Assembly: GCA_019636835.1 (NCBI GenBank)
Contig: JAHBWU010000002.1
Location: 1-64,000, forward strand
From: Nitrospira sp.
GTDB lineage: Bacteria; Nitrospirota; Nitrospiria; Nitrospirales; Nitrospiraceae
DNA: 64,000 nucleotides
Direction: 5' to 3'
In this document: positions 12,375 through 33,325 of the stretch, piece by piece
Position numbering within the stretch: the first letter of the stretch is position 1
How the letters are laid out: each line of letters begins with the position of its first letter
The notes under the pieces: model-generated
The model's input: only the letters and a program-made list of their open reading frames with translations
The model's database searches: none
Told to the model about the DNA's origin: nothing
Made by a program: the position numbers and the translations under genes

Positions 12375-15300
12375 TCGAACGCCTGATCCGTGCCGCCTTG
12401 GAACAACGGCTCATCGTGCTGCTCGGCGCGTTCGGGCTCATCGTGAGCGGCGTGGCGGCCATCCGCCATCTGCCGATCGATGCGTTTCCCGACGTGACGC
12501 CCGTCCAAGTTCAAGTGATCACGCGCGCGCCGTCCTTGGCTCCTTCGGAAATGGAACGCCTCGTGACCTTTCCCTTGGAGATCGAATTGACCAACTTGCC
12601 TGGAAAAACAGAACTCCGGTCAGTGTCGCGATTCGGGCTCTCGGTCGTCACTGTAGTCTTTGAGGATAAGATCGATATCTACTTTGCCCGGCAACTCGTC
12701 TTGGAACGGATACTCCAGGCACGATCGAGGCTTCCACAGAACGCCGAGCCTCTGTTGGGGCCGGCCAGTACGGGACTCAGTGAAGTCTTCATGTATCTCG
12801 TCGAGGGGTCGACGCAGACCCTCATGGACCTGCGGACCCTTCAGGATTGGGTGATCCGCCCGATGCTGCGAGCAGTCCCAGGCCTCGCAGATGTCGATAC
12901 GTTGGGCGGCCTGGCGAAACAGTATGAAGTGCTCGTGGACCCCTCTCGATTGACCGGCTTTGGAGTCACCTTGCGTCAAGTGCACGTTGCCGTAGCAGGG
13001 AACAATCAGAACGCCGGGGGCGGTTACATCGAACAGGGCGGGGATAAATTAGTCGTGTACGGGGTCGGGCTGGCCCGTTCTGCGGCGGATCTGGAACAGA
13101 TTGTGGTGGCGGCGCACAAGGGCACACCGATTTACCTCCGGGATGTCGCGCAGGTTCGCCAAGGGACCGCGATCCGGTTGGGGGGCGTGACGCGTGACGG
13201 GAAGGGCGAGGTGCTCGAAGGCATTGCCGTCATGCTACGCGGCGGCAATAGCCGGGAGGTTGTCTCAGCGGTGAGAGACAAGGTCGAGTTGATCAACCGG
13301 GTCTTGCCTTCCGGCATCTCGGTCGTTCCCTTCTATGACCGTATCGAACTCGTCGCGCGGGCACTCGAGACCGTGGAACGTGCCCTCCTGGAAGGTGCCG
13401 CAGTCGTGATGCTGGTGTTGTACCTGTTTCTACGGAATCTGCGAGGTGCGCTTGTTATAGCCCTGACCTTGCCCCTCGCCGCGTTGGCCACGTTCGTCAT
13501 CATGCATCAGGTCGGCCTGTCGGCGAATCTGATGTCTCTTGGCGGTTTGGCCATCTCGCTGGGAATGATCGTCGATGCGGCGATCGTGCAGGCTGAGAAT
13601 GTCGAGCGCTATCTCAGCGAACAGGGGAAGGGGAAGGGCTTTTTCCTCGCCGACCGGTTGCCGGTCGTTTTACGCGCCGTCCTGGAAGTGCGGCGACCGA
13701 GTCTGTTCGGGGAGTTGATTATTGCGTTGACCTTTGTCCCGCTCCTGACGCTGCAAGGTATGGAAGGCAAGATGTTCGTTCCGCTGGCCATGACGGTGGT
13801 CATCGCACTCCTCAGTTCTTTAGCGCTCTCAATGACCGTAGTCCCGGTGCTGACGGCTGTGCTCATGAAACCGCGTGCCGTTCAGGAGGAAGGGGCTGTG
13901 TTGGCGCATGGGCGGCGGTTGTATCGACGGATATTGGAGGGAGCCATTCGCAGAACTAGTATGGTCCTCATCCTGGCGGCCGCGGTGCTCGTCGGTGGGA
14001 CAGCTCTGATTCCGTTCATCGGTCGGGAATTCGTGCCGATCATGGACGAGGGCGCGATCGTGGTGAATCTGATGCGGCTTCCGAGTATCAGCTTGAGCGA
14101 ATCGCTCAAGATTTCAGGCGAGGTCGAGCGGTTGTTATTGCAAATACCGGACGTGCGCTCCGTGATTTCGCGCACCGGAGCCAATGAGCTGGGTACCGAT
14201 CCGATGGGGATGGAACTGAGCGATATGTACGTTTTGCTTAAGCCTGAGTCCGAGTGGCGGGCGCAGGCCAAGACCGAGATCGAGGAGCAGGTCCGCCGAC
14301 GGCTGGAGCAAGTGCCCGGTATCGCGTTCGGGTTGTCCCAGCCGATTGCCATGCGCGTCGATGAATTGGTATCGGGAGTCCGCTCTCAGGTCGCCGTCAA
14401 ACTGTTCGGCGATGACCTGGAGATCTTGCGGGTGCAGGCGGACGAGATCGCCAGGGTGCTGCGGAAGGTGAACGGCATATCCGATCTGCGGGTCGAGCAG
14501 GTGTCGGGCCTCTATTATCTGAAACTCGACATTGATCGTGCCAAAATCGCTCGTCATGGGATCAACGTCGCAGAGATCACGGAAGTGATCGAAGCTGTCG
14601 GCGGTGGAATTGCCTCCGGCGAGGTCTTCGAAGGACAGTGGCGCTTCCCCATTATGGTGCGATTTCCGGATGATCGTCGGGCCGATGTGGAGACAATTGC
14701 GGCGCTCTGGGCGACCGCTCCTGACGGGTCACGTATTCCCCTTCGTGAGCTGGCCGACATTCGAATCGTGGAGGGACCGGCGCAAATCAGCCGCGAGCAT
14801 GCGAGCCGCCGAATTGTGATTGAAGCCAATGTCGTCGGGCGTGACCTTGTCGGTGCCGTAGAAGAAGCACAGACGGCAGTGTCCCGTCAGGTACAGCTGC
14901 CGCCCGGTTATTATGTGACCTGGGGCGGCCAATTCGAAAACCAACAGAAGGCCATGGCTCGTCTGGCCATTGTCGTTCCTCTTGTCATCGGCTTGATCTT
15001 TGTGTTGCTCTGCTTCACGTTCGGAAATCTGAGACAAGCAGCGATCATTCTCCTCGCAATTCCATTTGCGATGGTTGGTGGCCTACTGGCGTTGCTGCTG
15101 GGGGGGCTGTATCTCTCGGTTCCGGCGTCCGTCGGCTTTATTGCCTTGTTCGGTGTGGCGGTGCTCAATGGAGTGGTGAAGATCGCCTACATCAACCAGT
15201 TGCGCGAACAGGGAATGCCGTTGGACGAGGCGGTGCTGACCGGCATGGTTCTACGGTTGCGCCCCGTGCTGATGACTGCGGCGGTCGCAATGATGGCGCT

Positions 15301-15508
15301 CATTCCCCTACTGCTGGCCACCGGCCCCGGCTCCGAGATACAGCGGCCGCTCGCCACGGTCGTGATCGGGGGATTGTTTTCATCAACGGTCTTGACGTTG
15401 ATCGTGCTCCCTGTGCTCTATCGGTGGATAGAGCTAAGAGTTGTTCAAAGACGTGACGCACTGCCCCGGACAGTTGTCTCGTCCTTGAACGCGAAAGCGA
15501 CAATGTAA
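12371..15508 (+). CDS. czcA: Heavy-metal RND efflux pump, CzcA-like
   Basis: The 1045-residue protein is a second HME-family RND proton/metal antiporter. The TM4 region reads SLGMIVDAAIVQAEN, keeping the central Asp and the Glu but lacking the extra Asp of the classical Co/Zn/Cd group. The Met residues that mark CusA are not conserved at the same places, so I cannot name the metal. The start overlaps the adaptor stop (ATGA). The last 60 or so codons and about 45 bases beyond recur in decayed form at about 18800-19025, in the same orientation. Confidence 0.9.
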   Translation: MIERLIRAALEQRLIVLLGAFGLIVSGVAAIRHLPIDAFPDVTPVQVQVITRAPSLAPSEMERLVTFPLEIELTNLPGKTELRSVSRFGLSVVTVVFEDKIDIYFARQLVLERILQARSRLPQNAEPLLGPASTGLSEVFMYLVEGSTQTLMDLRTLQDWVIRPMLRAVPGLADVDTLGGLAKQYEVLVDPSRLTGFGVTLRQVHVAVAGNNQNAGGGYIEQGGDKLVVYGVGLARSAADLEQIVVAAHKGTPIYLRDVAQVRQGTAIRLGGVTRDGKGEVLEGIAVMLRGGNSREVVSAVRDKVELINRVLPSGISVVPFYDRIELVARALETVERALLEGAAVVMLVLYLFLRNLRGALVIALTLPLAALATFVIMHQVGLSANLMSLGGLAISLGMIVDAAIVQAENVERYLSEQGKGKGFFLADRLPVVLRAVLEVRRPSLFGELIIALTFVPLLTLQGMEGKMFVPLAMTVVIALLSSLALSMTVVPVLTAVLMKPRAVQEEGAVLAHGRRLYRRILEGAIRRTSMVLILAAAVLVGGTALIPFIGREFVPIMDEGAIVVNLMRLPSISLSESLKISGEVERLLLQIPDVRSVISRTGANELGTDPMGMELSDMYVLLKPESEWRAQAKTEIEEQVRRRLEQVPGIAFGLSQPIAMRVDELVSGVRSQVAVKLFGDDLEILRVQADEIARVLRKVNGISDLRVEQVSGLYYLKLDIDRAKIARHGINVAEITEVIEAVGGGIASGEVFEGQWRFPIMVRFPDDRRADVETIAALWATAPDGSRIPLRELADIRIVEGPAQISREHASRRIVIEANVVGRDLVGAVEEAQTAVSRQVQLPPGYYVTWGGQFENQQKAMARLAIVVPLVIGLIFVLLCFTFGNLRQAAIILLAIPFAMVGGLLALLLGGLYLSVPASVGFIALFGVAVLNGVVKIAYINQLREQGMPLDEAVLTGMVLRLRPVLMTAAVAMMALIPLLLATGPGSEIQRPLATVVIGGLFSSTVLTLIVLPVLYRWIELRVVQRRDALPRTVVSSLNAKATM

Positions 15509-15547
15509 ACCAGTAGACGGGAATGTTCGAAGGCTGTGGAGGATTTC

Positions 15548-15877
15548 ATGACTCTAGCGATCTCTCTGGGATTATTCGTGCTCGCCGGATTGTGCGAGAT
15601 TGGGGGTGGGTATCTTGTGTGGCTCTGGTTCCGAGAGGGACGGCCGCTTGCTTACGGAATGGCAGGAGCGGTTATTCTTATTCTCTACGGCATCATTCCA
15701 ACCTTACAGCCGGCGCACTTCGGACGAGTCTACGCGGCATACGGTGGAATGTTTATCCTATTGTCCCTGTTGTGGGGCTGGGGTATCGACGGAGTCCGTC
15801 CTGATCGCTATGACGTGATGGGAGCCATTCTCTGTTTGGGCGGTATGATCGTCATTATGTATGCTCCCAGGACATGA
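15548..15877 (+). CDS. UPF0060/YnfA-family small membrane protein
   Basis: The 109-residue protein has four predicted membrane segments and matches the YnfA (UPF0060) pattern, including the [14 protein letters not shown] opening and the GRVYAAYGG motif. YnfA relatives are SMR-like small transporters whose substrate is mostly unknown. The ATG at 15548 follows GGAGG; an ATG 12 bases upstream is in frame but badly placed. It sits 39 bases after the RND gene, so it may be the last gene of that operon and a metal link is possible. Confidence 0.85.
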
Positions 15878-16083
15878 AGAAGAAGGAATGGGTATGAGTC
15901 GTAACTAGAAACTCTCTCATCTCGAACGCACTTCGGTTGCGGAGAATCGCCTCAAACGTATCGAAACTCCTCGTCATTTTGCTCTCGTACATTCCATCGG
16001 GTATCACATAGTTCAAGAGCCAGGTTCATGTATCCATGAAAACTCTTACGGAGGGCCGAGCGCTATGAGGGACTCGTACCCAC

Positions 16084-16115
16084 TTGACTCGGTACCTTGG
16101 TACAGGGTGTAAGGT
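16084..16115 (+). promoter_or_regulatory. MerR-type promoter/operator
   Basis: A -35 TTGACT (16084-16089) and a -10 TAAGGT (16110-16115) are separated by 20 bases. The overlong spacer holds the dyad GTACC-TT-GGTAC. This is the classic architecture at which MerR-family activators twist DNA to open the promoter. It lies 28 bases before merR, so the regulator and the transport genes behind it are transcribed together. Confidence 0.88.
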
Positions 16116-16143
16116 TTCAAATATCAACAGAACAGGTGATGTG

Positions 16144-16581
16144 ATGGCAGCGGGACTCACGATTGGTCGGTTGGCGAAAGCGGTCGGGGTCAACGTTCAG
16201 ACCGTGAGGTACTATGAACGGCTTCATCTGCTTGGCCCGGCCGCGAGAGCATCGTCGGGATATCGCCTCTATGGTCCGGAAGAAGAACAACGACTGCGGT
16301 TTATCAAGAACGCGCAGGCGCTGGGGTTCACATTGCGCGAAATCACTGAATTGCTGAATCTACGCGTGAGTTCGCGGGCGCGATGTGGCGATGTCCAGCG
16401 GAAGGCAGAGGACAAATTGCAGGGCGTGAAGGCCAAGATGCAGGCCTTACAGGCCTTGGCTCAAGCGCTTGAGAGTTTGATTCGAGCCTGCCGGAGGGGT
16501 CAACCAACTGATCGCTGCCCGATTCTCAAAAGATTGGAAAAGAAAGCAGAAGTGCAGGTTGAGAGCCAAACAAGGAGATGA
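16144..16581 (+). CDS. merR: Mercury-responsive MerR regulator
   Basis: The 145-residue protein has an N-terminal winged helix (TIGRLAKAVGVNVQTVRYYERLHLL), a dimerisation helix and a C-terminal metal site. Cys81, Cys116 and Cys125 correspond, one position shifted, to the three Hg(II) ligands of Tn21 MerR (82, 117, 126). The ATG at 16144 gives the standard MerR length; the longer frame would run through the promoter. It is codirectional with merT, unlike Tn21 where merR is divergent, so it activates its own operon. Confidence 0.92.
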   Translation: MAAGLTIGRLAKAVGVNVQTVRYYERLHLLGPAARASSGYRLYGPEEEQRLRFIKNAQALGFTLREITELLNLRVSSRARCGDVQRKAEDKLQGVKAKMQALQALAQALESLIRACRRGQPTDRCPILKRLEKKAEVQVESQTRR

Positions 16582-16991
16582 CGGCTATGTGCCCGTGCGG
16601 GGAAGCTCCTTCCAAACCTAGACCACCGAACAATCCGGTGACAATGCTCTCGGTTGGTGGAGTGAGCGCAGCGTTGCTGGCTTCTGTCTGCTGCATTGGG
16701 CCACTGGTCTTCGCGGCGCTTGGTGTGGGAGTCGGGGCTACGGGCTTCTTGGCCGGTACGGCTGGAGTCTTGAAGGGACTCTTGCCGTATCGACCGGCCT
16801 TCATCGGCCTGACGATACTTCTGTTGGGCATCGGCTTTTATCTTGCCTATAGAAAGCCGGAGTCCACGGGGTGCGCGCCAGGAGAAGTGTGTGCTCGAGG
16901 AAATCCGAATGCTAGGAACAGGACATGGCTGTGGATCTTGGCGCCGTTGGCGCTGGTACTGGTTTTGGCACCTTATTGGTTGACCCTATGA
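16578..16991 (+). CDS. merT: MerT mercuric transport protein
   Basis: The 137-residue protein has three membrane segments. Cys38-Cys39 (SVCCIGPL) in the first is the MerT pair that accepts Hg(II) from the periplasm, and a second pair (CAPGEVC) lies in the loop before the third. The N-terminus has an additional MCPCGEA segment not usual in MerT, perhaps a cytosolic thiol site. The start overlaps merR by 4 bases, but ATG at 16587 is better spaced from AAGGAG. MerT imports Hg(II) for reduction, yet no reductase gene follows. Confidence 0.88.
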   Translation: MTAMCPCGEAPSKPRPPNNPVTMLSVGGVSAALLASVCCIGPLVFAALGVGVGATGFLAGTAGVLKGLLPYRPAFIGLTILLLGIGFYLAYRKPESTGCAPGEVCARGNPNARNRTWLWILAPLALVLVLAPYWLTL

Positions 16992-17074
16992 TTTCCGTGA
17001 AGCGAGAGATGTGAGGCATTAGGCGTCATTTTTCTGTATCGGAGAAGCGAGGCAATGGAGAGGAGGAAACGACC

Positions 17075-17428
17075 ATGTGGAAACTCTTTCACACGATGAT
17101 CGTGATCGGTGTTGTGACCGTGAGCCTGGGCGCATTCCAAGGACTTGTCGCTGAAGGTCAAAGTCAGCAGACCGTCACATTGCAGATCGATGGGATGACT
17201 TGTGGGGGATGCGTCAAGGATGTCAAAGCCGCCTTGGCCAAGGTGCCTGGTGTCAGCTCGGTGGAGCTCAGCGTGGGAACGAAGTGGGTCGTTTTCTCCG
17301 ATTATTCGAACGCCCGCGCTGCCGTAACGTTTGATCCGCAGAAGGCGAACGTGGAGATGTTGGTCAGAGCCGTCGAGGCGGCTGGCAACCCGCTGTCGAA
17401 ATACAGAGCACAGGTGATTGATAAGTAG
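17075..17428 (+). CDS. merP: MerP periplasmic mercury-binding protein
   Basis: The 117-residue protein has a signal peptide and one heavy-metal-associated domain with the GMTCGGC motif (Cys43, Cys46). MerP scavenges Hg(II) in the periplasm and passes it to MerT. A strong GAGAGGAGG precedes the ATG. The domain has a slightly longer central loop (VGTKWVVFSDYSNARA) than typical MerP. It is 83 bases after merT in the same operon. Confidence 0.9.
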   Translation: MWKLFHTMIVIGVVTVSLGAFQGLVAEGQSQQTVTLQIDGMTCGGCVKDVKAALAKVPGVSSVELSVGTKWVVFSDYSNARAAVTFDPQKANVEMLVRAVEAAGNPLSKYRAQVIDK

Positions 17429-17475
17429 GCGACGATCATCTGGTATCGGATTATGAAGCTGAAGGAGGCGTTGTC

Positions 17476-17865
17476 ATGATTCAGGAGTCGAATGTTCAGA
17501 GCGGTCTGTTTGCTGAACTTCGGAAGCTGAGCCCTGTGGTCACCGGCGGATTGTTGCGCATGCGGCAACAGGCGTATCGGAATGGAACTGTGGCCGCGAA
17601 ATACAAACTGCTCACTGCCATGGCTATGTCAATCACGATTCGTTGCGAGCCTTGCATACGGGCCTATGTGCGGCTGGCCTGCGACAAGGGAATCACTCGG
17701 GAAGAACTAGTTGAATTCCTCGAAGTAGCGATGACGATGCAAGGTTGTCCCGGTGAGGAATGGGCTCTCAAGGCCTATGCGGCATATAAGGAATGTATGG
17801 ATGGTGGGGCAAGCTCAGAGGCGGCGACCTGTTGTCAGCATGCGGTTGAGGAAGTCAAAGAGTGA
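17476..17865 (+). CDS. Carboxymuconolactone-decarboxylase/AhpD-like protein in the mer operon
   Basis: The 129-residue protein belongs to the CMD/AhpD-like fold, with the redox motif CEPC in an all-helical context (SITIRCEPCIRAYVRLAC) and further Cys residues (MQGCPG, CCQH). CxxC members act as thiol peroxidase partners or in other redox work. It follows merP by 47 bases with an AAGGAGG ribosome site, so it is probably induced by mercury. It could protect thiols or handle imported Hg(II). That role is inference. It occupies the place where merA would be expected. Confidence 0.8.
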   Translation: MIQESNVQSGLFAELRKLSPVVTGGLLRMRQQAYRNGTVAAKYKLLTAMAMSITIRCEPCIRAYVRLACDKGITREELVEFLEVAMTMQGCPGEEWALKAYAAYKECMDGGASSEAATCCQHAVEEVKE

Positions 17866-17996: not shown

Positions 17997-18754
17997 CTAT
18001 CGCCAAGTCACTTCTTCCCAGCAGAGATGGACAAAGGTCTCGAAGGGGGGAAAGTTGTTCGCGTTTTGTTCTTTAGACCGTAACCAGAGATCGATCTCCA
18101 TCCCGGCTGGATCGGTCTCGCCGCCGGGCAAGGTGCGTTTGACGGGGTATCGGACCTCATGGGTCTTGGGATCGCGAGAGCGCTCCATCACCATAAAGTG
18201 CGCGTCATAGTCTTGGTAGAGCATTTGATCGTTCTTGTACATTGTCCCCGTGCCCCATCCTCCCAAGTACAACCAGGTTTTCGGATACAACGGATCGCCA
18301 TGGTTCGAATCCCCATGTTCGTAGATTCGGGTGGCAATGCCTCCATCCTGGAACGGCGCTTTCGCGGCAAATCGATCAAAGACGATGCGATACCGATCAC
18401 CCCCTTCGACAAATTCGGCCACCACCCGTCCTGTGTTGGTGTGTTCGTTTACCTCGATGTCGATCGTCCTTGCACGGGATTCAGACGCTTGCCTGCGTAG
18501 TCGAGATGGTCCCAAGGCGCAAGGTCATTCATACTCCCGATGAGAGTCGCCCGATCGCCTTTGATGCGAAACTCCCCCGTATAATGAGGGTGCTCCATGG
18601 CTTTGAAAATCCTCGTGCCTTCATCTCCCTTGGGGATTCCAAACTTACCTTCTTCGGCATGCCCAGGGGAGATAAGAATTCCTGAAACCATCGCGGGCAG
18701 AATAGAGACAATGAAGCTCGCGAGACGTATCATCGTGCACCTCTTGGATAACAA
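17997..18754 (-). pseudogene. Secreted protein of unknown family, interrupted by a frameshift
   Basis: Two minus-strand frames (18449-18754 with a signal peptide, and 17997-18515) join into one protein of about 250 residues if a single frame change near 18475-18490 is undone: ...YAGKRLNPVQG continues as RTIDIEVNEHTNTG. The N-terminal part reads like a secreted enzyme or binding protein (HYTGEFRIKGDRATLIGSMND). The C-terminal part is beta-rich (GGDRYRIVFDRF, TWLYLGGWGTG). I do not recognise the family. A real inactivation or a sequencing error would look the same. Confidence 0.65.
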
Positions 18755-19025: not shown

Positions 19026-20923
19026 CAATGGTGAATTTTTGACGCGGATTCAAAGACCAGCTTGACCGGCCCGACGGCTTCTTTGAGGATGACATGCTCG
19101 CCATCGGAGGCCACGGCGAGCGTCACCGGGTCTCGTTGTTTCAGGACCCACCCGCTGGGTATCCGGACATCCAGACCTGCGATTTTATCTGGAATATCGA
19201 GCGCCACGGTGTGACGCGACCCGTCCTGATGCACATCGACTTCCACCTGATTGCGCGCCGCCCACCATCGTCCGAATTCACCGACAGATCCGAACCAAGC
19301 ACGATCGCGGACCGCCGCCACAAATTCTCGTTCGAACTCGAATTTGTGTCCCAGTATATTTGGATGGATCAGGACGACAAAGCTGCCCCCATAGCGACCG
19401 ACCTGCGGACCAACTCAAGGGCTTGCGGAAGTCGGGACCCCAGTTCAGGTAACTCCTCATCCTCGAGCGTCACTGGAAATTCGAAGATGCCGACTTCGCT
19501 CTCTACCCCTCTGTCATAGGTCAATTGGTACGGCAGGTGCGCGAGCGAGTTGTTGGCCGTGGCGGACGAACTGAATCGATAGCCGCCAGCCGCGAGAGCT
19601 TGTGGAAGCGTGAGGGGGGTTCGACAGATGGCCCGGTCGAAAGGAGATGACGGTATTTGGTGGAGAAAAGTGCTCGATGAGGAACTTGCTCACTCTCAAT
19701 TCTCCAAGCACCGTGCCGTTGTAGGCTGTTTGTCGCGACTTCACATAGGGCCGGTATGAAGGATAACCTTCTGTTCCGGTGCCCAACGGAAATGTATGCA
19801 GGACCTTCGAGTGAGCCACGGTGTGGCTGCCCAACTCCATGCCCAGCTTGTGGAGCGTTTGAAGATCTCGAACGCCTTGCGGATTAAAGAAAATATCGTC
19901 GTTGCAGTCGCGGATATATTTTGTTTGGATGAAATAAGTTCCGGTAATGCCCTGGCTCCGCTCGAACTCAGCATAGCGGAGTGCATTGACCATGGACGTT
20001 GAGGCATCGATGTCATGCGTGAGGAGCACCGACAACGACCGGTGATTGGGAACTGTGCCGAGGATCACGGCATTCGGTTCGCCGGTTCGATAGATCTCCT
20101 TGAGCATTCGCAATACCACATTGAGCAACGGCTCAAACCGATTGTCGTAGCTCTCTGCAATACCTTCCTCCCATAAGTTGTATCCCTTCGCCAACAAGAA
20201 CCCGATATCGAGACCGAAGGCGATAGCGCGACCCTGGTCGTATGATCGCTGAACAATCGCCGGTGTCCCGTCGTCGTACACCGCCAATGGCGCTTCCTTC
20301 GGGGCGAGGTAGCTGTGCGAGCCGACAGGCTCTCCACCCTTTTGCCGGTCTCCTAACCGAAGAACTTGCTCTTTGGGTTCAGTGAATTGGGCAAGGAGCG
20401 GCGAGAGTTGATTAAGACGCAATTCGAAATGACGGCCGAATGATTGTGCCTCTCTGTATCCGAACACCTCGTTCAGCCCTCCGCCGAGCACATTGATGCC
20501 GATCAATGTTCCGCCGTTCCGAGGAAAGGAGGCCAATGCTTTCATAGCTTCCGAAGTGAGCACCCGTCCCGAGATCATCGGATACACGAGGACCACCCGA
20601 TGAGCGAGCGCCTGTCGGTAATCTTGCGTCACAAGAAACGGCACCCCGATAGTCTTGAGGCCGTGCGCCAGGCGAAGCCAATTCGATGTCGGATCGGTCA
20701 ACAGGACGGCGAGACGACTCTGTGTGCCGGCTTCGTAGCGACTGATTGGAGTCGGGGAGATCGGCAGGACTACCGACAGGCCGGAAGACCCGCTGACGCC
20801 GTCGAAGATCTGTATCTGATCAGGAAGAACCGTATGGTCATCGGAGAAAGGAAACAGAAGCAGACTCACCCACACGGCGAATCCGGTGGTGAGTAGTCCG
20901 AGGGAAACGAGAAGCGCCCGCAT
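19025..20923 (-). pseudogene. Polysaccharide deacetylase-like protein with two apparent frameshifts
   Basis: The first frame (19514-20923) starts with a membrane anchor, then a long periplasmic region, then a NodB-like deacetylase core: LLTHDID (metal Asp) and ELGSHTVAHS (two metal His). After FRPGHLS, at a run of six G on the plus strand (19613-19618), the frame must shift to continue as LPQALAAGGYRFSSS..., and near 19415 shift again to reach IHPNILGHKFEFE and the 19025 stop. Restored, it has about 630 residues. It is the last gene of an exopolysaccharide operon and would deacetylate the polymer, as PgaB does. Sequencing error at the G-run is a real alternative to decay. Confidence 0.7.
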
Positions 20924-20957: not shown

Positions 20958-22268
20958 TTACCAGTGCCAGATCACGTTTATCGTGATGCCGCGGCGAACG
21001 TAGAGGGTGGACCGGTCCTCATAGTAACCGACGACTTCGCCGGAGAACCGTTCACTGATTGGAAAGATAGCGCCGCCCTGAATGATACGGCTCGGTACCC
21101 GAGTAAAATCCTGAGCCGCGACGATCCGTTCGCCGGAGGTCCCGAACCCGCCGGACGCGAAGAGTTGCAGGCGAGCGGTCGGCCGCCACGTCAATTGAGA
21201 GGACAGCGTGATGGAGCCCTGTTCTGGCACATAATAAATCTTTTCCGTCAGCCAGAGATTGAACGGCAAATAGATCGTTACACCCGGCGACAACAGATCA
21301 ATACCCTCCTGCTTGAAATGCATGCGCCGATACCCGAACGAGAGCTCGATGGACGACAAATACGGCGACAGATCCTCCAAACCCTGGAAGATTTCTCCAC
21401 CCACCGTCCAGTTCGGCACGAAGCCGGGATTGACCGCGCCGGATGCGCCGAGATAGCCCCATGCCCGTTGCCACAGTGGACTGTAGACCTCTCCGGACAC
21501 GGGTGTGTCATGGAGGCCGAACCGGTTCAACGGCTCTATGCGACCGACGAAGGTCAGCTTACCCAGGGGTTTCGCCGCTTCGATGACCCAATCTCGTTCA
21601 TCGGGGAATCCGTTGGTATAGGTGTAGTGGCTATATCCAAGTTTCGCATAATTTCGAAAGGGCAGGGCCGGCCCGTTCCGAGGACCCCGCACCGGTGCCC
21701 GAGCCGACAGGGTGATTTCTTGGTTCACCGCGAGGATCCGTTGGGTGACCTCCGGATCATGTGTTTGATCATAGACCTCCTGATACAGTCGGAGGGCGTC
21801 CTGATAGTGCTTGCTCCAATACAGAGTATCGGCCAAGCCTTGCTTCGCCTCGACATTCTGGGGATCTTCATCCAAGACTGCCCGATACAGCGCGGCGGAT
21901 TCATCGAACTGTTGCTGCCAGGACCGGACGCGCGCCAGGGCTATCCGGACATCGATATCCACCGGGTGTCGAGTCAGGATATCTCGATACAGGGTCACGG
22001 CCTCCTCATGTTGACCGTGCCAAGATAAAACCCGGGCGAGGAGCGCCCTCACTTCGTCGTCCTCAGGCCGGCGTTGAAGGTAGTCGCGGTAAAGACCGGC
22101 CGCCCTATCAAACTCCTTGGCTGCCTCTGCTTCCTTGGCGGCCGTCAAGATATCGAGCCGCGTCGGCTGCACCTGGAACGAACCAACTTCTGTCGGTTCG
22201 TCTGCACGGGAGTTCCCAAGATGGAGACTGATCGACAGCGTGATGACGAGACACAACAAGCGAATCAT
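20958..22268 (-). CDS. TPR plus YaiO-like outer-membrane beta-barrel protein
   Basis: The 436-residue protein has a signal peptide, three or four TPR units (about residues 35-165, e.g. EAVTLYRDILTRHPVDIDVRIALARV) and a C-terminal barrel (about 205-436) ending in INVIWHW. This is the YaiO-family arrangement, analogous in role to the TPR-barrel exporter PgaA. It probably passes a polysaccharide through the outer membrane. The start overlaps the stop of the synthase gene (ATGA), and the deacetylase gene follows after 34 bases. Confidence 0.85.
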   Translation of the reverse strand: MIRLLCLVITLSISLHLGNSRADEPTEVGSFQVQPTRLDILTAAKEAEAAKEFDRAAGLYRDYLQRRPEDDEVRALLARVLSWHGQHEEAVTLYRDILTRHPVDIDVRIALARVRSWQQQFDESAALYRAVLDEDPQNVEAKQGLADTLYWSKHYQDALRLYQEVYDQTHDPEVTQRILAVNQEITLSARAPVRGPRNGPALPFRNYAKLGYSHYTYTNGFPDERDWVIEAAKPLGKLTFVGRIEPLNRFGLHDTPVSGEVYSPLWQRAWGYLGASGAVNPGFVPNWTVGGEIFQGLEDLSPYLSSIELSFGYRRMHFKQEGIDLLSPGVTIYLPFNLWLTEKIYYVPEQGSITLSSQLTWRPTARLQLFASGGFGTSGERIVAAQDFTRVPSRIIQGGAIFPISERFSGEVVGYYEDRSTLYVRRGITINVIWHW

Positions 22269-25200
22269 GGATCTTCCTTGATTGCAGGGAGAGCACTAAA
22301 GCCCGGATAGTCATGAATCATCACGCCGGAAAACGAACGGTTGGGCAATGTTTGGTCGAGTCCGCGGAGCATCGCGCCGACCTCTCGGCGCGGACGTCCC
22401 GAAAAGGTCAGGCGTTCCGGCCGAATCGTCGTCCGCTGCACGATGCGAAACCAGTCTCGTTCATCGCCTCCGGGCGGAGGTGCGAACACGAGTCGCTTGC
22501 CGGCACGATCCAGGTAGGCGGTCGCTAAATCCCGGCGCGTGACGTGTTCGAGCCGGACATGCTCCTCCAGCGGCAAGGGTTGCGTCTCGACCGCCAGCCA
22601 CACCGGCAGGCCGATGAGGTCTCCATAGCGAAGCTGATCTTCGATAAGGTCACGCAGCTCCGCCAGGTCGGTCCGATAGCTCATGATGGCCACCTCGTCG
22701 GCGAGAGCCATCGCAGCAAACGCCACCGCCCGGTTGCGCGCCGACTGCGATGTCAGCCAGAACGGCATGACAATCGATAGTCGCGCTTGTCCGGCCAACG
22801 CGCGTTTCACCTGCGCGTGCATCTCCAGATATTTCTCATAGCCCTGAGGGTCGTTGAGAAAACCGTCAAGCAGATAGGGCTCGATGTCGAGCTGCACGCC
22901 AGCCGGCAATCGCCCCTGCATCATGTCCTGCAAACGTTCCACTTTCTTGAGGAGGGGTCCTGCGTCGAGAACCGCTTCCGGGTAACCGTCCAACGCAAAG
23001 GCTTCGATGTGCTGCCGCTGTGCGGTTTGGAGCAGGCCGACATAGCGGAGCCAGGTCTCTTCAGGATCATTAAGCGCCGGCAGTTGAACCGCTAGGCGGC
23101 TGCATTGCAAAGACCTGCAGACATCCAACAACGACGATCCCTGTGCCGTTGCCTCTCGGTAGTCCCATACCCAGAATCCAATCCGTCGGTGAGGTTTTGG
23201 TGCCGCTTGTCCTCTGGCCACGGATAGCTCGTCAAGCCGGAGCACGACGTTTCCTTGTTTCGGTATCACGGAGACCACGGTCACGTCGCGGAGGTCGATC
23301 TCCTTGGCTCCCGGCATCAGCGGAAGAGTCACGTCAAAACGTCCCGGTCGCTGGTCAAGAGAAAATTGAGCGCCCCGCCAAACCGTTCGGTCGTCGGCCA
23401 ACGCGACTGAAATGGGAGCGGACGCAGATCCCCGGAGCGTCAGGGATTGGTAGGAAAGGAGGTCCAATCGGGTTCCAGTCTGCGCCACGGCAAAGAGGAT
23501 GGGGCACGGCCGATCACCTGGGCCGACAGTGCGGACAGTCAGCAGGGCTGTCGAGGGTTCTCGAAGTACTTCACATCCCGGCTCGCTCCGGACGTCGACA
23601 ATGTGATTGAGGAGATTGACGCGCGATTCGACCGGGCGAATTCGACGAGGGGCCGGTGGGTCAGGTGCCGTCTTGAATACGAGCCTCGGCTCGCGCCCGG
23701 AGACATAGATGACGTCCACTTCCTGAACCATCATGGGGACGTTTCCGTAAAACGAGACCGTTCCTGTGCCGATAGCTGCAGGCGGGAGCTCGTGCGCGGC
23801 GGCTGTCGCCGGTATGGAGGCAAGGCCGATGAGAAGTCGTGCCGTGGCTCCGGTGTTGGAAAACCCGCGCCTGGTCATCACGCCCCAGTCACGACTGCCC
23901 CGCGCATATTTGCTCAATCCACGCAGACGCCAATAGACCGTGAGCTGGCGGAAGCCGATGTTTTCCAATAAGCACCAGAGGACCAGCCAGAATCGATCCA
24001 TGAGCGTGGCCGTTCGATGGAACGTGAATTCTTCGATGGTGAGCGCCGCCAGGGACAACAAGATCCCATACCCGTACGCGACCAGAAAGAACAGGCATGC
24101 AAACGACAAGTCCATTTCTCCGAGCGCGAGGATCGAGACCATGATGAGCAGCCCCATTGCTTCGATCACGGGCGCCAGCAATTCGCCGAACACAAAGTAG
24201 GGGAACACGAGGAGTCCCAAAGCCCCATACGACGGATTGAAGAACAGCCGACGATGCCGCCACAAGACATCGGCAAGGCCTCGCTGCCAGCGATCACGCT
24301 GATTCCCGAGCACGTGAAGCGATTCGGGCACCTCGGTCCAGGCAACCGGGTCCGGAATGAAGATCACCCGTTGGGGTTGCCGTTCTTCACACCCGATCCG
24401 CCGCAGGCGCACCACCAACTCCATGTCCTCCCCGACCGTGTCATGCAGATAGCCGCCGGCATGGATCACCGCCTCGCGGCGAAACAAGCCGAATGCACCG
24501 GATATGATCATGTTGCCTCCGAGGCGGTTCCACCCCAGTCGGCCGAACAGAAAGGCGCGGAGATACTCCACCACTTGCACCCCTGCCATCGGACGGCGCG
24601 GCACATGCACCGTCGCCACCCGGCCACCCTTGACCAACGATCCGTTGACCGGCCGAACCGTGCCTCCGGCGGCCACCACTTCATTGGACTCGATGAACGG
24701 ACGCACCATCCGCTGCAGCGCATCCGGTTCGATCAACGTGTCGGCATCGATGGCGCATACCAGTTCGTTCGAGGCGATGTTGAGCCCGGCGTTCAGCGAG
24801 TCGGCTTTGCCGCCGTTTTCCTTATCGACGACCACGAGATTCGAATGAATGGTGGACCGATAGAGCGCACGCACCGGTTTCGTGTGAAGCTGATGCCGGT
24901 AGATCGGGTGCACGGCGGAGAGTCCGAATTGATCGTGGAGCACGCGAAGCGTCTCGTCCTTGGAGCCGTCGTTGACCACGATTACTTCCAAGTTCGGATA
25001 CTGGATGCCCAACAGCGCTCGGAGACTTTCGGCGATCGTCTTGGCTTCGTTGTAGGCGGGGGCGAGGAGTGTAATGCGAGGAGCGATCTCGGACTTCAGC
25101 AAACGGCGCCGGTTTTCGTCTCGCGCTTTCTGCAGATGCGGTCGAATATCGAGGACGGCGCTCATCAACAATAATCCATAGAAGCTCGACAGCAGGAAGA

Positions 25201-25270
25201 AATAGAGAAGGATCAGCCATTCAATCGTGAGCAGGGCGTTCAGGAGTGCTTCAGCGACACCGGGGGTCAT
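22265..25270 (-). CDS. Fused GT2 polysaccharide synthase and periplasmic TIM-barrel-like domain
   Basis: The 1001-residue protein (ATG at 25270, overlapping the upstream stop) has two parts. Residues 1-470 are a processive family 2 glycosyltransferase like PgaC/BcsA: NDGS at 100-103, DAD at 175-177, ED at 281-282 and QRDRW at 324-328, with flanking membrane segments. A second hydrophobic segment (about 475-493) then leads to a large exported part with a beta-rich region and a barrel-like domain (about 695-1000) carrying LDIE at 794-797, IMSYRT and GVMIHDY, reminiscent of GH18/PgaB-hydrolase barrels. I infer synthesis of a beta-linked hexosamine-type polymer with trimming at the outer face. 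The polymer is not proven. Confidence 0.82.
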   Translation of the reverse strand: MTPGVAEALLNALLTIEWLILLYFFLLSSFYGLLLMSAVLDIRPHLQKARDENRRRLLKSEIAPRITLLAPAYNEAKTIAESLRALLGIQYPNLEVIVVNDGSKDETLRVLHDQFGLSAVHPIYRHQLHTKPVRALYRSTIHSNLVVVDKENGGKADSLNAGLNIASNELVCAIDADTLIEPDALQRMVRPFIESNEVVAAGGTVRPVNGSLVKGGRVATVHVPRRPMAGVQVVEYLRAFLFGRLGWNRLGGNMIISGAFGLFRREAVIHAGGYLHDTVGEDMELVVRLRRIGCEERQPQRVIFIPDPVAWTEVPESLHVLGNQRDRWQRGLADVLWRHRRLFFNPSYGALGLLVFPYFVFGELLAPVIEAMGLLIMVSILALGEMDLSFACLFFLVAYGYGILLSLAALTIEEFTFHRTATLMDRFWLVLWCLLENIGFRQLTVYWRLRGLSKYARGSRDWGVMTRRGFSNTGATARLLIGLASIPATAAAHELPPAAIGTGTVSFYGNVPMMVQEVDVIYVSGREPRLVFKTAPDPPAPRRIRPVESRVNLLNHIVDVRSEPGCEVLREPSTALLTVRTVGPGDRPCPILFAVAQTGTRLDLLSYQSLTLRGSASAPISVALADDRTVWRGAQFSLDQRPGRFDVTLPLMPGAKEIDLRDVTVVSVIPKQGNVVLRLDELSVARGQAAPKPHRRIGFWVWDYREATAQGSSLLDVCRSLQCSRLAVQLPALNDPEETWLRYVGLLQTAQRQHIEAFALDGYPEAVLDAGPLLKKVERLQDMMQGRLPAGVQLDIEPYLLDGFLNDPQGYEKYLEMHAQVKRALAGQARLSIVMPFWLTSQSARNRAVAFAAMALADEVAIMSYRTDLAELRDLIEDQLRYGDLIGLPVWLAVETQPLPLEEHVRLEHVTRRDLATAYLDRAGKRLVFAPPPGGDERDWFRIVQRTTIRPERLTFSGRPRREVGAMLRGLDQTLPNRSFSGVMIHDYPGFSALPAIKEDP

Positions 25271-26329: not shown

Positions 26330-28780
26330 TTATGCGGCAAGGGCTCGGCGGATTCGGTGCAACAGCAGCCGCGCGCTGAACGGTTTAGCCACGTGATCAA
26401 AGGCGCCGAGTTCGAACATCGCATCCACTTCTTCTTCGCCGGACCGATGGGTCAGCATAATGACCCGTGTCGAATGCAGGCCGGTTTCCAAACGGATACG
26501 GCGCAGGATCGCGACTCCATCGAGGCCCGGTACGTCGACTTCCAAGACAAGAACTCTCGCGCGCAGCGCGGGAGCTGTTCCCACGAGCTTCCCGAACGCC
26601 TCTTCACCGTCTCGAAACCGGCAAGCCCTATATCCTTGGTTCAGGAGCATGCGCAGGAGCATGTCGGTGACCGTGTCATCCTCATCGATAATCACGACGT
26701 CGAATGGCTCGGTCGGAACGGCCCGACTGTGCCCGCCCGCCGCCACCACGCAATCCCGTCCTGACGCCTTTGCGGCTGACAGGGCATGGCCCGCGGCCTG
26801 GTAGACCGCCTCGCGCTCCGATCCGTCGGTAGGAAACTCGGCGATGCCGACGCTGAGGCTCACGGCGATCGTCTCGGCGGTCTCCGTTGCGAATCGTTCC
26901 CGGCGCACGAACCGAAGCAGTTCCTCGAATCTCGCCTGCGCCGCCGCTTTGGGGGCGCGATGAAGCCCAATGACGAATTCATCGCCTCCCAGACGTCCGA
27001 TGACATCCTCCGGCCGGAAAAATTTGGATAACATCTGTCCTAATCGTCGCAAAACCATGTCGCCGGCCGTCGTCTGATGACGATCGTTGATTTCGTTCAA
27101 GCGATCGACATCGATCACGGCCAAGGAGAAAGAGTCCCGATACCGTTTGGCCAAGCGAAGGGAACGCTCCAACATGTGTTCAACGGCTTTCCGACTCGCG
27201 ACACCCGTCAGGGAGTCACGTTCCATCCGATGTCGATATAGGCGGGCACGCCCCAACCGGTTGTGCACCCGCGTGATGAGCTCGGCGCCGACGATCGGCT
27301 TGCTGATGAAGTCGTCGGCTCCGGCCATGAAGAGTCGCTGAATCGTGCCGGCGTCGGTCTGCGCGGACAGAAACACAATCGGCAAAAATTCCCAATGCGG
27401 ATCACCGCGCACCACCCTGCAAAGCTCGATGCCGTTCAGATGGGGCATTTCCACATCCAGGATCAACAGATCCGGATTAACCTCCTCGAGCGTGTCCCAA
27501 AATTTCAGCGGATCGGTAAGCGTTGTGACATGAAGGCCTCGTCGTTCCAGGAGCTTGCCTGCCAGTCGGCAGACCAACTCGCTATCGTCCACGACAAGGA
27601 TCTTCGGAACGTCGGTACGGCTCTGGCCGAGTATTTCCTTGGCTACACTCAGGATGGTGGCGGCGGACTCCCGCTTGTCGAGCACGCCGAGACCGCCGGC
27701 CCCGGCGATGGAAACCCGGTCCTTGAATGAATCTCCCTCCGTCAGGACCAACAGGGGAATCGGAGGAGAGTGCGCGGCAAGGTCGCCTATGAAGTCCAAT
27801 TCTTCACAAGACGCGCCGTCTCCGCCGATGTCCAACAACACCAGATCCGGACTCGTGCCGGTCATGGCTTCCGCAGCCGCGTCAAGGCTTTCTGCGGCAA
27901 CGATTCTGACATCGTGGTGCGAGGCGTCGGCTCCTAGAAGATCGAGCAAGGCTTCATCCCGGCCAATCACGAGGATAAGTGGAAGCGTTGCGGAGGCGAG
28001 CGCTTCATCGGTCGGCACTATGCTCACCCGATCTGCCTGCTCCTGAAGCTCCACGACCAGCTCGCAGAAGCGAAGCATCCGGCTCGGGGTCCATGCTTCG
28101 TCTCGGCGTAACAACTGCTCCGCCTCGCCGGCCGACTGTGCCAATGCGGTGAAGCCGTATCCGCCTGCGTCCAGCGCCATGCGCAGGGATCGACGCATAG
28201 CTTCCCGTCTCACGTTATCGCGGAGGGTGTCTTCCAGGAGGTCGGTTGCCGCTCGTTCAAGTGCCGCCACATGCTCCTTCAGAGCGCTCTTGAAGCTCTC
28301 CCACTGAGCCTCTTGACTCGTGGGTGATCCTCCATGAGTTTCGGAGACAGCGCCTATGGGAGAGTCGAGTTGTTTCACGGGAAGACTCAGCAGGTCTCCG
28401 ATATGATGTGCGATTTCCTGAGGGTCCGACGGATAGGTGAGCAGGCTCTGCACGCCGAAGTCTTTCACCAACTTCTTGGTGAGGTCAGGGTCCATGTTTC
28501 TTTCCAGGCAATAGACGATGGGGATCAGCGAGCCCTGTCGACCCCGCCGAATCTTATCCAGGAAAGGTTCAACACCGCCGGCAAGTCTCCGATGGTGCAG
28601 AAGCAATAGCGACCACTGCCGGTCACTGATCAGGTCTAAGGCTGCTGCCTTCGTGCTGACTGCCTCAATGGCCACATCGAGGGCCTGTTGAAGGGCTAAG
28701 GCGATGCCGGGGGGAGGGCACACTGCCAAGATACGCGGTTTCGCTGGTTGCGTCGGCGGTGTCGTATCTTCGCTGTCCAT
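26330..28780 (-). CDS. Multi-receiver diguanylate cyclase (REC-Hpt-like-REC-REC-GGDEF-REC)
   Basis: The 816-residue soluble protein appears to hold a degenerate receiver (about 15-130), a helical Hpt-like region (about 155-255) without the expected His, a second degenerate receiver (about 265-385), a full receiver (about 392-510, VVDDSE, LLILDVEMP, SKP), a GGDEF domain (motif near residue 598, with an RPED inhibitory site five residues before it) and a C-terminal receiver-like domain (IIDEDDT, LVLEVDVPG, AKPF). It should make c-di-GMP under phosphorelay control. As first gene of the operon it is a natural activator of the synthase, as c-di-GMP is for PgaC/BcsA. No histidine kinase is adjacent. 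Confidence 0.88.
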   Translation of the reverse strand: MDSEDTTPPTQPAKPRILAVCPPPGIALALQQALDVAIEAVSTKAAALDLISDRQWSLLLLHHRRLAGGVEPFLDKIRRGRQGSLIPIVYCLERNMDPDLTKKLVKDFGVQSLLTYPSDPQEIAHHIGDLLSLPVKQLDSPIGAVSETHGGSPTSQEAQWESFKSALKEHVAALERAATDLLEDTLRDNVRREAMRRSLRMALDAGGYGFTALAQSAGEAEQLLRRDEAWTPSRMLRFCELVVELQEQADRVSIVPTDEALASATLPLILVIGRDEALLDLLGADASHHDVRIVAAESLDAAAEAMTGTSPDLVLLDIGGDGASCEELDFIGDLAAHSPPIPLLVLTEGDSFKDRVSIAGAGGLGVLDKRESAATILSVAKEILGQSRTDVPKILVVDDSELVCRLAGKLLERRGLHVTTLTDPLKFWDTLEEVNPDLLILDVEMPHLNGIELCRVVRGDPHWEFLPIVFLSAQTDAGTIQRLFMAGADDFISKPIVGAELITRVHNRLGRARLYRHRMERDSLTGVASRKAVEHMLERSLRLAKRYRDSFSLAVIDVDRLNEINDRHQTTAGDMVLRRLGQMLSKFFRPEDVIGRLGGDEFVIGLHRAPKAAAQARFEELLRFVRRERFATETAETIAVSLSVGIAEFPTDGSEREAVYQAAGHALSAAKASGRDCVVAAGGHSRAVPTEPFDVVIIDEDDTVTDMLLRMLLNQGYRACRFRDGEEAFGKLVGTAPALRARVLVLEVDVPGLDGVAILRRIRLETGLHSTRVIMLTHRSGEEEVDAMFELGAFDHVAKPFSARLLLHRIRRALAA

Positions 28781-29062
28781 CTGATTGTAGGATTCTTCAA
28801 CGAGGCGGGATTGATTGCTTCATTTCCCTTCACACATGCATGCTCATAGTTCATAACGCGCCGGTTCTCAGCCGTATTGCATCATCAAGGCTGCTCTGCG
28901 GCAAGAAGTTTCCAAAACGGTGTAGGATAAGGCGACGAACGCATATTCGATTGGCCTGAATGCTCACGAAGTGTAGAATGCCGTCGTTTCTTGTCCGACA
29001 GTGAGGAAGGGAAAAGGGCTTATGAGACGTGTGACATGTGGCGAAAGACGCGAGGCGCATCG

Positions 29063-30475
29063 GTGAAGAACCGTAAGCACGTGATGCAGATCGCTGTCTG
29101 GGGTATCGTGAGCGGTCTGATGGCTCCGGTTTCGGTGCCGGCCGGCAGCCCACAGATACCTACGATTAACAGCCACGATTTGCAAAGCCAAGTCAAGGGC
29201 ACCGCCAATAAAGTCATTCCTGCCGTGGTGAGCATCGCGTCAACCGTCATGGTGCGTGATCAGGCCTTCAGCGACGAAGCCCTGCCGTTCGGTTTGTTCA
29301 AAGACCCACCGACCCGTCGGCAATACGGACAGGGGTCGGGCGTGATCGTCACGCCTGACGGTTACATCATCACGAATAACCATGTGGTCGCCGATGCCGT
29401 CGATGTGGAAGTGATCCTGGCGGATCGCCGTCAATACAAAGGGAAGGTCGTCGCCACCGATCCAAAAACCGACGTGGCGGTCGTGAAGATCCATGCGTCG
29501 AATCTTCCCACTGCGACCTGGGGGGATTCGAGCCATCTGGCCGTCGGTGATTTCGTGCTTGCGATCGGCAACCCGCTGGGATTGAGTCGCACCGTCACAT
29601 TCGGCATCGTGAGCGCAGTCGGTCGCGCGGATGTCGGAGTGGCGGACTTCGAGGACTTCATCCAGACGGATGCACCGATCAACCCAGGGAATTCAGGCGG
29701 AGCGCTGGTCAACATTCATGGCGAGCTGGTCGGAATCAATACGGCCATCGCGAGTCCGACCGGCGGAAGCGTGGGTGTCGGGTTTGCGATTCCCAGCAAT
29801 ATGGCCCGTGCCGCCATGCAAAGTCTTATTAAGACAGGCCGCGTGGTGCGAGGATTTCTGGGAGCCTCGACGCAAGACGTCAGCCCTCCACTGGGGAAGA
29901 TTTTTCGTTTGCCGGATGTCAAGGGCGCGATCGTCACCGACGTGCAGGCCAGAGGGACGGCGGAACGAGCGGGTCTGAAACGAGGCGATGTGGTGGTGCG
30001 CTTCGACGGGCGGGACGTCATGGACAGCGGCCAGTTGCGGAATCTCGTGGCGCAATCGCCGATCGGCAGCAAACACCGCGTGGATCTCATCCGGGATGGG
30101 AAGCAGTACCAGGCCGACCTTGTCATTCAGGAAGCGCCGCGTGAACGCCCGAAGAAAAATCAGGTTGCGTCCTCGGCCGTCTCGACAGCCCATCCGCTGG
30201 CGGGCGTCGTCTTCGATGACGTCACTCCCCCTCTGGCACGGCAGATGGATTTACCGGTGAATCACGGCGTAGTCGTGACCGATATTGAAGAAGGCAGCTT
30301 AGCCGAAACTTCCGGTTTACAACCGGGTGATGTTGTACTGGAACTGAACCGACAACATGTGAACAGTTTTTCGATACTGCAACGCCTCGCCGATCCTCTC
30401 AAACCCACCGATCTGGCGCTCTTACTCGTAAACCGCCAGGGCAACGTCATGTACGTCCCGATTCAAGGGGAATAG
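29063..30475 (+). CDS. HtrA/DegP-family periplasmic serine protease
   Basis: The protein (470 residues from the GTG at 29063; the frame opens at 28991) has a signal peptide, a trypsin-like domain with catalytic His in ITNNHVV, Asp in PKTDVAVV and Ser in NPGNSGGAL, then two PDZ domains (KGAIVTDVQARGTAERAGL and GVVVTDIEEGSLAETSGL). It degrades or refolds damaged envelope proteins. I prefer 29063 because of the GAGG upstream and the KNRKH-hydrophobic signal; ATG at 29036 is possible. Its last 200 or so bases recur as an orphan at 33108-33325. Confidence 0.92.
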   Translation: MKNRKHVMQIAVWGIVSGLMAPVSVPAGSPQIPTINSHDLQSQVKGTANKVIPAVVSIASTVMVRDQAFSDEALPFGLFKDPPTRRQYGQGSGVIVTPDGYIITNNHVVADAVDVEVILADRRQYKGKVVATDPKTDVAVVKIHASNLPTATWGDSSHLAVGDFVLAIGNPLGLSRTVTFGIVSAVGRADVGVADFEDFIQTDAPINPGNSGGALVNIHGELVGINTAIASPTGGSVGVGFAIPSNMARAAMQSLIKTGRVVRGFLGASTQDVSPPLGKIFRLPDVKGAIVTDVQARGTAERAGLKRGDVVVRFDGRDVMDSGQLRNLVAQSPIGSKHRVDLIRDGKQYQADLVIQEAPRERPKKNQVASSAVSTAHPLAGVVFDDVTPPLARQMDLPVNHGVVVTDIEEGSLAETSGLQPGDVVLELNRQHVNSFSILQRLADPLKPTDLALLLVNRQGNVMYVPIQGE

Positions 30476-32870: not shown

Positions 32871-33107
32871 AATAGCCGCTATAGAGTTAATCGAGAACGA
32901 GGCATGTCTTTGTGTGAAGGGGATCCACACGAATCTTAAGTAAGCCGAAGCTAACTGGATGGATAGTGACCAAAAGGCGTTCACCAACCGCGGCTTGATA
33001 TTGCGGCCGGTGCACATGGTTTGTCCTGGATGAATAATTGTGAATTCCACATCTGAAATATTCATGAAAACTTCAGACTATGTGGACACCACGAGTCTGG
33101 GTGACGG

Positions 33108-33325
33108 TGAATGAATGAGTGGTCGTGGCAGATATCAAGGAAAGCAGCGTAGCCCAAACCTCAGGTTTGCAACCAGGTGACGTCGTGCTTGAACTGAACC
33201 GGCAACATGTCAATAGCTTTGCAAATCTTCAACGCCTCGCCGATCCCCTCAAACCCACCGATCTGGCGCTCTTACTCGTAAACCGCCAGGGCAACGTCAT
33301 GTATGTCCCGATTCAAGGGGAGTAG
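33108..33325 (+). pseudogene. Orphan duplicate of the htrA 3' end (second PDZ domain)
   Basis: The reading VVVADIKESSVAQTSG through to VMYVPIQGE copies the end of the protease at 29063-30475. An in-frame TGA (VNE-stop-VVV) cuts the upstream part, and nothing of the protease domain precedes it. The final 100 or so bases are almost identical to the protease gene, with about three mismatches, whereas the first half is more diverged. A 68-residue ORF from 33119 (GTG) is open, but I judge it a remnant. Confidence 0.8.

Follow-up and report, generated by a model that had tools for sequence, protein, structure and literature searches.

Can a polysaccharide synthase and a periplasmic hydrolase-like enzyme be parts of one polypeptide, and would they stay joined? 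This question is raised by a single gene in a Nitrospira sp. genome (contig JAHBWU010000002.1), which we analysed within a stretch of 64,000 nucleotides, here called the window. A first, sequence-only reading had proposed that a complete GT2 synthase is joined there to an exported, hydrolase-like barrel. The frame starts with ATG and runs uninterrupted over 1,001 residues (Table 1), and it does join these two parts within a PNAG-type gene set. Our preferred reading is that one polypeptide probably holds a processive GT2 synthase with a cytoplasmic end, a signal-peptide-like segment and a periplasmic CBM-like domain with a GH18/GH153-like barrel, and that it belongs to a PNAG-like export module.

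Table 1. Coordinates in the window of the fused gene, its parts and the neighbouring genes.
Feature	Coordinates	Strand	Basis or remark
Multi-receiver response regulator with GGDEF (REC, REC-GGDEF, REC), intact GGDEF motif	26330..28780	-	Pfam Response_reg 4.2e-53, GGDEF 2.1e-30
Membrane-anchored HEAT-repeat protein, one N-terminal hydrophobic segment	25267..26325	-	Pfam HEAT_2 9.1e-19
Fused gene, 1001 aa, GT2 synthase plus predicted exported CBM-like/GH-like half	22265..25270	-	Open frame
GT2 polysaccharide synthase domain, residues 1-470	23861..25270	-	Pfam, motifs, hydropathy
Junction, residues 471-495: GT2 tail end, then signal-peptide-like LLIGLASIPATAAA/HE	23786..23860	-	
Predicted CBM-like jelly-roll domain, residues 496-690	23201..23785	-	AlphaFold2 + VIA-align
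Predicted TIM-barrel GH18/PgaB-like domain, residues 696-1001	22268..23185	-	AlphaFold2 + VIA-align
QLDIEPY signature after barrel strand 4 (D795, E797)	22874..22894	-	Invariant in alignment; found across phyla
MSYR at barrel strand 6 (Y865, position of the GH18 MxY motif)	22673..22684	-	
E895 of VWLAVET, barrel strand 7	22586..22588	-	Invariant in 14-relative alignment
TPR + YaiO-type outer-membrane barrel (PgaA-like exporter)	20958..22268	-	TIGR04390
NodB-type polysaccharide deacetylase, GH42M-like N-terminal part	19040..20923	-	Frame changes ~19610, ~19395

The synthase half carries the signatures VVNDGS (at residue 98), DADT (175), VGEDMEL (279) and QRDRW (324); Pfam GT2 models match residues 64–404 (PF13641, E = 4.5e-25), and hydrophobic segments lie at residues 3–43 and 347–413. 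Its GT2 fold, its DxD, ED and QxxRW motifs and the membrane segments on either side are the hallmarks of a processive polysaccharide synthase. Over the catalytic region, identity to E. coli PgaC is 29%, and the score against the PgaC/IcaA PNAG synthase equivalog (TIGR03937) was 136.3 bits, far below the cut-off of 422.3. The C-terminal motif of the GT2 family (W-G-x-M-x-R-x-G/A) appears here as DWGVMTRRGFS, with its last residue at 471, as anticipated by the proposal that the synthase is complete and ends near residue 470. Two membrane segments after the glycosyltransferase domain and a positively charged tail (RLRGLSKYARGSRDWGVMTRR) would, by the positive-inside rule, leave the GT2 end in the cytoplasm, and from there the following segment could export the second half.

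We next consider the exported half. Neither residues 500–1001 nor their standalone relatives matched a Pfam or NCBIfam family at curated cut-offs. AlphaFold2, supplied with an alignment of 14 relatives, predicted a beta domain at the N-terminus followed by a TIM barrel (pLDDT 84.6; 83.9 for the beta domain modelled alone), so that the 500 exported residues do contain the barrel first read there but are predicted to form two domains; a non-enzymatic fold was not what came out. The beta domain resembled CBM30, CBM29 and CBM11 in VIA-align searches (Z 12.6, 12.5 and 11.8). Its predicted fold is the jelly roll of carbohydrate-binding modules, and on this model we take the N-terminal exported domain to be CBM-like.

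In VIA-align, the barrel matched Cwp19 best (Z 19.5, rmsd 3.8, 244 aligned), ahead of a chitinase domain from Desulfitobacterium (Z 18.6). The C-terminal domain of E. coli PgaB, 4p7q, was also matched (Z 16.9, rmsd 4.1, 240 aligned). The predicted fold is a TIM barrel like that of PgaB, of GH153, a family defined with catalytic residue D474 (PMC5933820), but the PgaB match is tied with many others, and many GH18 and other TIM-barrel enzymes lie within 1–2 Z units. Membership of GH153 by sequence was dropped, as hhalign of the family alignment against a single E. coli PgaB domain detected no relation (probability 3.2% over 31 columns). GH18 membership was also rejected, Pfam GH18 staying below its gathering score (best E 0.25, 2 of the 14 members). 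The GH18 motifs DxxDxDxE (strand 4) and MxYD (strand 6) read QxDxE and MxYR here, keeping only the DxE core and the Tyr. The proposed comparison with GH18 and GH153 stands for the fold and not for the sequence, and the barrel belongs to an unnamed family. The sole PDB sequence match to this family, 10yv ('Putative GH97 from Cellulomonas fimi', E 6.8e-12), shares a QLD-EP signature with the barrel but is a standalone barrel of 275 residues, unfused to a synthase.

The LDIE string singled out by the sequence-only reading sits in a conserved QLDIEPY (D795, E797) of the predicted TIM barrel. It does not vary among the 14 aligned relatives and persists, slightly altered, in more distant homologues, and so is not a chance string. 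The invariant acidic and Tyr residues of the barrel include D761, D795, E797, Y865, E895 and D987. One might suppose that the barrel is a catalytically dead guide that binds the polymer and hydrolyses nothing: neither Pfam nor NCBIfam matches it significantly to any catalytic GH family, and DxxDxDxE is only partly kept. However, the carboxylate/Tyr set lies at strand ends and is invariant over relatives in the phylum, and QLDIEPY, MxYR and (A/V)ET recur, slightly altered and not every motif in every homologue, in other Nitrospirota families, Methylococcaceae, Pseudohongiella, Alcanivorax, Ottowia and Bacillaceae-type hosts, as expected of an active site. The signature QLDIEPYLL is conserved from Nitrospirota through Proteobacteria to Bacillota. 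We consider a dead barrel unlikely; the barrel looks like a putative hydrolase able to cut such polymers.

Whether the two halves would remain joined depends on the junction. The second hydrophobic segment of the sequence-only reading exists (LLIGLASIPATAAA, residues 479–492 of a signal-like segment at 479–493), but it is short (~14 hydrophobic residues) and weak, with a best 19-residue mean hydropathy of 1.26, below the 1.4 that marks other membrane segments. Together with an AAA/HE site and an RR-rich n-region, this makes it look signal-peptide-like, with an AxA site, rather than a firm membrane helix, and standalone relatives have an N-terminal leader at the matching place. These same features favour a polyprotein in which signal peptidase cuts after the internal AxA, giving two products made 1:1, a synthase and a free periplasmic hydrolase, with no tether. 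M465 could also serve as an internal start, although we saw by eye no clear ribosome-binding site upstream. Against cleavage, the signal segment is internal to a fused membrane protein, a setting in which cutting cannot be judged from sequence alone. Because the junction is short and carries AAA/HE, release of the hydrolase has to be taken seriously beside tethering, and we rate release as a real possibility though rather less than probable. The proposal that fusion fixes synthase and hydrolase at 1:1 at the export site accordingly survives in part: co-translation gives 1:1 output, but tethering at the export site is only a possibility, since the junction could be cleaved.

The fusion itself could be a sequencing or assembly artefact of two genes that are really adjacent, as in Methylococcaceae. 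The source genome is a draft (88% complete, 153 contigs) in which the fusion is a singleton, and unfused, co-directional GT2 and barrel genes do exist in that order (loci L102, L138 and L139). The deacetylase gene, 3–4 kb away, has two compensating frame changes ~200 bases apart, pointing to base errors or gene decay on the contig. On the other hand, GT2 homology continues in frame 0 to the end of the family and passes from there into the signal segment without a change of frame; at the junction, the two other frames contain no ATG, GTG or TTG from which a separate exported protein could start. A single indel therefore cannot have merged two ordinary genes, and we set aside a one-indel frameshift as the simple explanation; an artefact would take two errors, or a chimeric join that happened to fall exactly in frame. 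We also dropped a TGATGA/ATGA in frame 1 at M465 as the true GT2 end, as the tail DWGxMxRxGFS continues beyond it in frame 0. The concern that the fusion arises from a sequencing error is thus answered in its single-indel version and persists as a compound error, given the deacetylase; we consider an artefact of this kind improbable.

A search of contigs with the single exported-half sequence returned no relatives, and querying with an alignment found them. Across two overlapping sets, one of 99 near relatives and one of 396 genomes of the phylum, the window genome alone had an open frame spanning both halves, and among the matches listed there was no fused frame in 101 genomes of the family Methylococcaceae or in 369 of the gammaproteobacterial class. 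The suggested search in relatives thus recovered both halves, always separate, and among the relatives searched the fusion is private to the window genome. We conclude that the fusion is currently an unusual variant of synthase-dependent exopolysaccharide export, resting on one genome.

The fused gene lies third in a minus-strand series of GGDEF regulator, HEAT, fused, TPR–YaiO and NodB deacetylase genes, with ATGA overlaps at both of its ends, with HEAT and with YaiO. The YaiO outer-membrane barrel scored 94.9 bits (TIGR04390, cut-off 32). E. coli N4-receptor papers returned by our literature search made no mention of YaiO or YaiP. A pga operon with pgaD and a two-domain PgaB was not seen in the Pfam scan of the neighbouring genes: a HEAT gene takes the place of a PgaD-like gene, and NodB is separate. 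We conclude that the fused gene is within a PNAG-like export module. In the deacetylase, sequence is conserved in all three pieces delimited by the frame changes (19395–19610, minus strand), which represent base errors or a decaying gene. A GH42M-like domain also precedes the NodB domain in deacetylases of loci L036 (3414–5312) and L143 (12328–14316), a layout that, we presume, recalls PelA. Elsewhere in the window, two overlapping frames (17997–18754, minus strand) read as one exported protein split by a frame change, which would be a second possible indel close to the frame changes of the deacetylase; a fragment at 33107–33322 (plus strand) is a partial duplication, sharing 87.5% identity with the C-terminus of the HtrA-like protease (28991–30475); and ORF translations show an RND heavy-metal efflux pump, a MerR-type regulator and mercury-type transport proteins (12371–17865, plus strand) adjoining the exopolysaccharide genes.

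The same set of genes recurs in Nitrospira, Methylococcaceae, gammaproteobacteria and Ottowia. In Nitrospira relatives, the GT2 gene is divergent from barrel–YaiO–NodB, with HEAT and receiver genes nearby. In Methylococcaceae, the genes run co-directionally as receiver–YaiO–HEAT–GT2–barrel, with GT2 and barrel in tandem and unfused. These unfused modules have orthologous GT2, barrel, YaiO, HEAT and receiver genes; they differ from the window in keeping GT2 and barrel separate, and their regulators are mostly single receivers without GGDEF. In gammaproteobacteria the barrel adjoins NodB, with HEAT–GT2 nearby, and a HEAT gene adjoins the GT2 gene in other phyla too. In Brevibacillus, a GT2 homologue and barrel proteins stand beside a GlmS-like protein (GATase and SIS) and a hexapeptide-repeat nucleotidyltransferase, a setting that speaks for an amino-sugar polymer. 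Several barrels of the QLDIEPY family lie there in tandem near a PgaC-like GT2 (L107, L110 and L115–L121), and in the related locus L111 the GlmS-like and nucleotidyltransferase genes are found beside them; this suggests that a Gram-positive bacterium has an amino-sugar polymer system not yet characterised.

Phylogenies indicated that the two halves have different histories. The GT2 half fell outside the Nitrospira GT2 clade, on long branches, and forcing it inside was rejected by the AU test (p = 0.009, with the caveat of long branches); it grouped with Pseudohongiella with weak support (84/79). The exported half grouped within the Nitrospira clade (support of 99/99 for the set that encloses it). 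The fused gene is thus a chimera. The YaiO barrel is also of Nitrospira type (61–62% identity to Nitrospira YaiO barrels versus under 30% elsewhere), as is NodB (55% versus about 40%), and the HEAT gene is too divergent to be placed, including whether it was acquired with the synthase. The two histories meet at the fusion point, which suggests that a synthase from another lineage was attached to a resident operon. Most likely, a synthase not of Nitrospira type became fused in frame with the leading gene of a hydrolase–YaiO–deacetylase operon already present.

Taking our preferred reading of one polypeptide, and by analogy with the PNAG system, we infer the identity of the polymer, the hydrolase activity, the order of steps and control by c-di-GMP. 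Cyclic di-GMP made by the GGDEF regulator next door would turn on synthesis, probably by way of the HEAT protein, and the polymer extruded by the synthase would be an amino-sugar chain, probably of GlcNAc type. In the periplasm, beside the synthase, the barrel would bind and trim this polymer; its deacetylation would fall to the separate NodB protein and its export to the TPR–YaiO porin.

This locus shares with E. coli pgaABCD a GT2 synthase, a TPR-barrel porin, a deacetylase, a hydrolase-like barrel of PgaB-like fold and a nearby GGDEF regulator. The contrast drawn by the sequence-only reading with separate PgaC and PgaB proteins holds, except that the PgaB-like deacetylase is here a separate downstream gene. 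The hydrolase is fused to the synthase, whereas in PgaB it is fused to the deacetylase, and the barrel has no detectable sequence relation to that of PgaB; the deacetylase is a protein of its own with a GH42M-like part; and no PgaD was found, a HEAT protein adjoining the synthase instead. GT2–GH18–deacetylase multidomain proteins exist, and our literature searches returned nothing usable on this precedent. In the literature searched we came across no report of a GT2 joined to a CBM-like/GH-like half of this kind, an absence that is no proof. Fusions of glycosyltransferases to PgaB-type deacetylase domains, and BcsZC and BcsAB fusions, have been described (PMC7112194). They likewise unite parts of exopolysaccharide machines, including a synthase with a periplasmic modifying enzyme, but combine a glycosyltransferase with a deacetylase, or a hydrolase with an outer-membrane pore, whereas here a glycosyltransferase is combined with predicted CBM-like and GH-like domains. 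The role of the PgaB hydrolase and its coordination are stated to be unknown (PMC7112194).

The fused gene bears on why a hydrolase accompanies the synthase in PNAG-type systems and on how the two activities are coordinated. A natural synthase–hydrolase chain beside many unfused relatives allows a direct experimental comparison of tethered and free hydrolase. Our survey also sketches an exopolysaccharide module that recurs in Nitrospirota, Proteobacteria and, in part, Bacillota, with a hydrolase family that has no Pfam or NCBIfam model. At its fullest, and we put this forward tentatively, the product may be a functional, uncleaved fusion, a single membrane protein in which polymerisation and trimming are coupled, and it may expose an unnamed glycoside hydrolase family (QLDIEPYLL) of a cross-phylum, HEAT-containing exopolysaccharide module distinct from pga.
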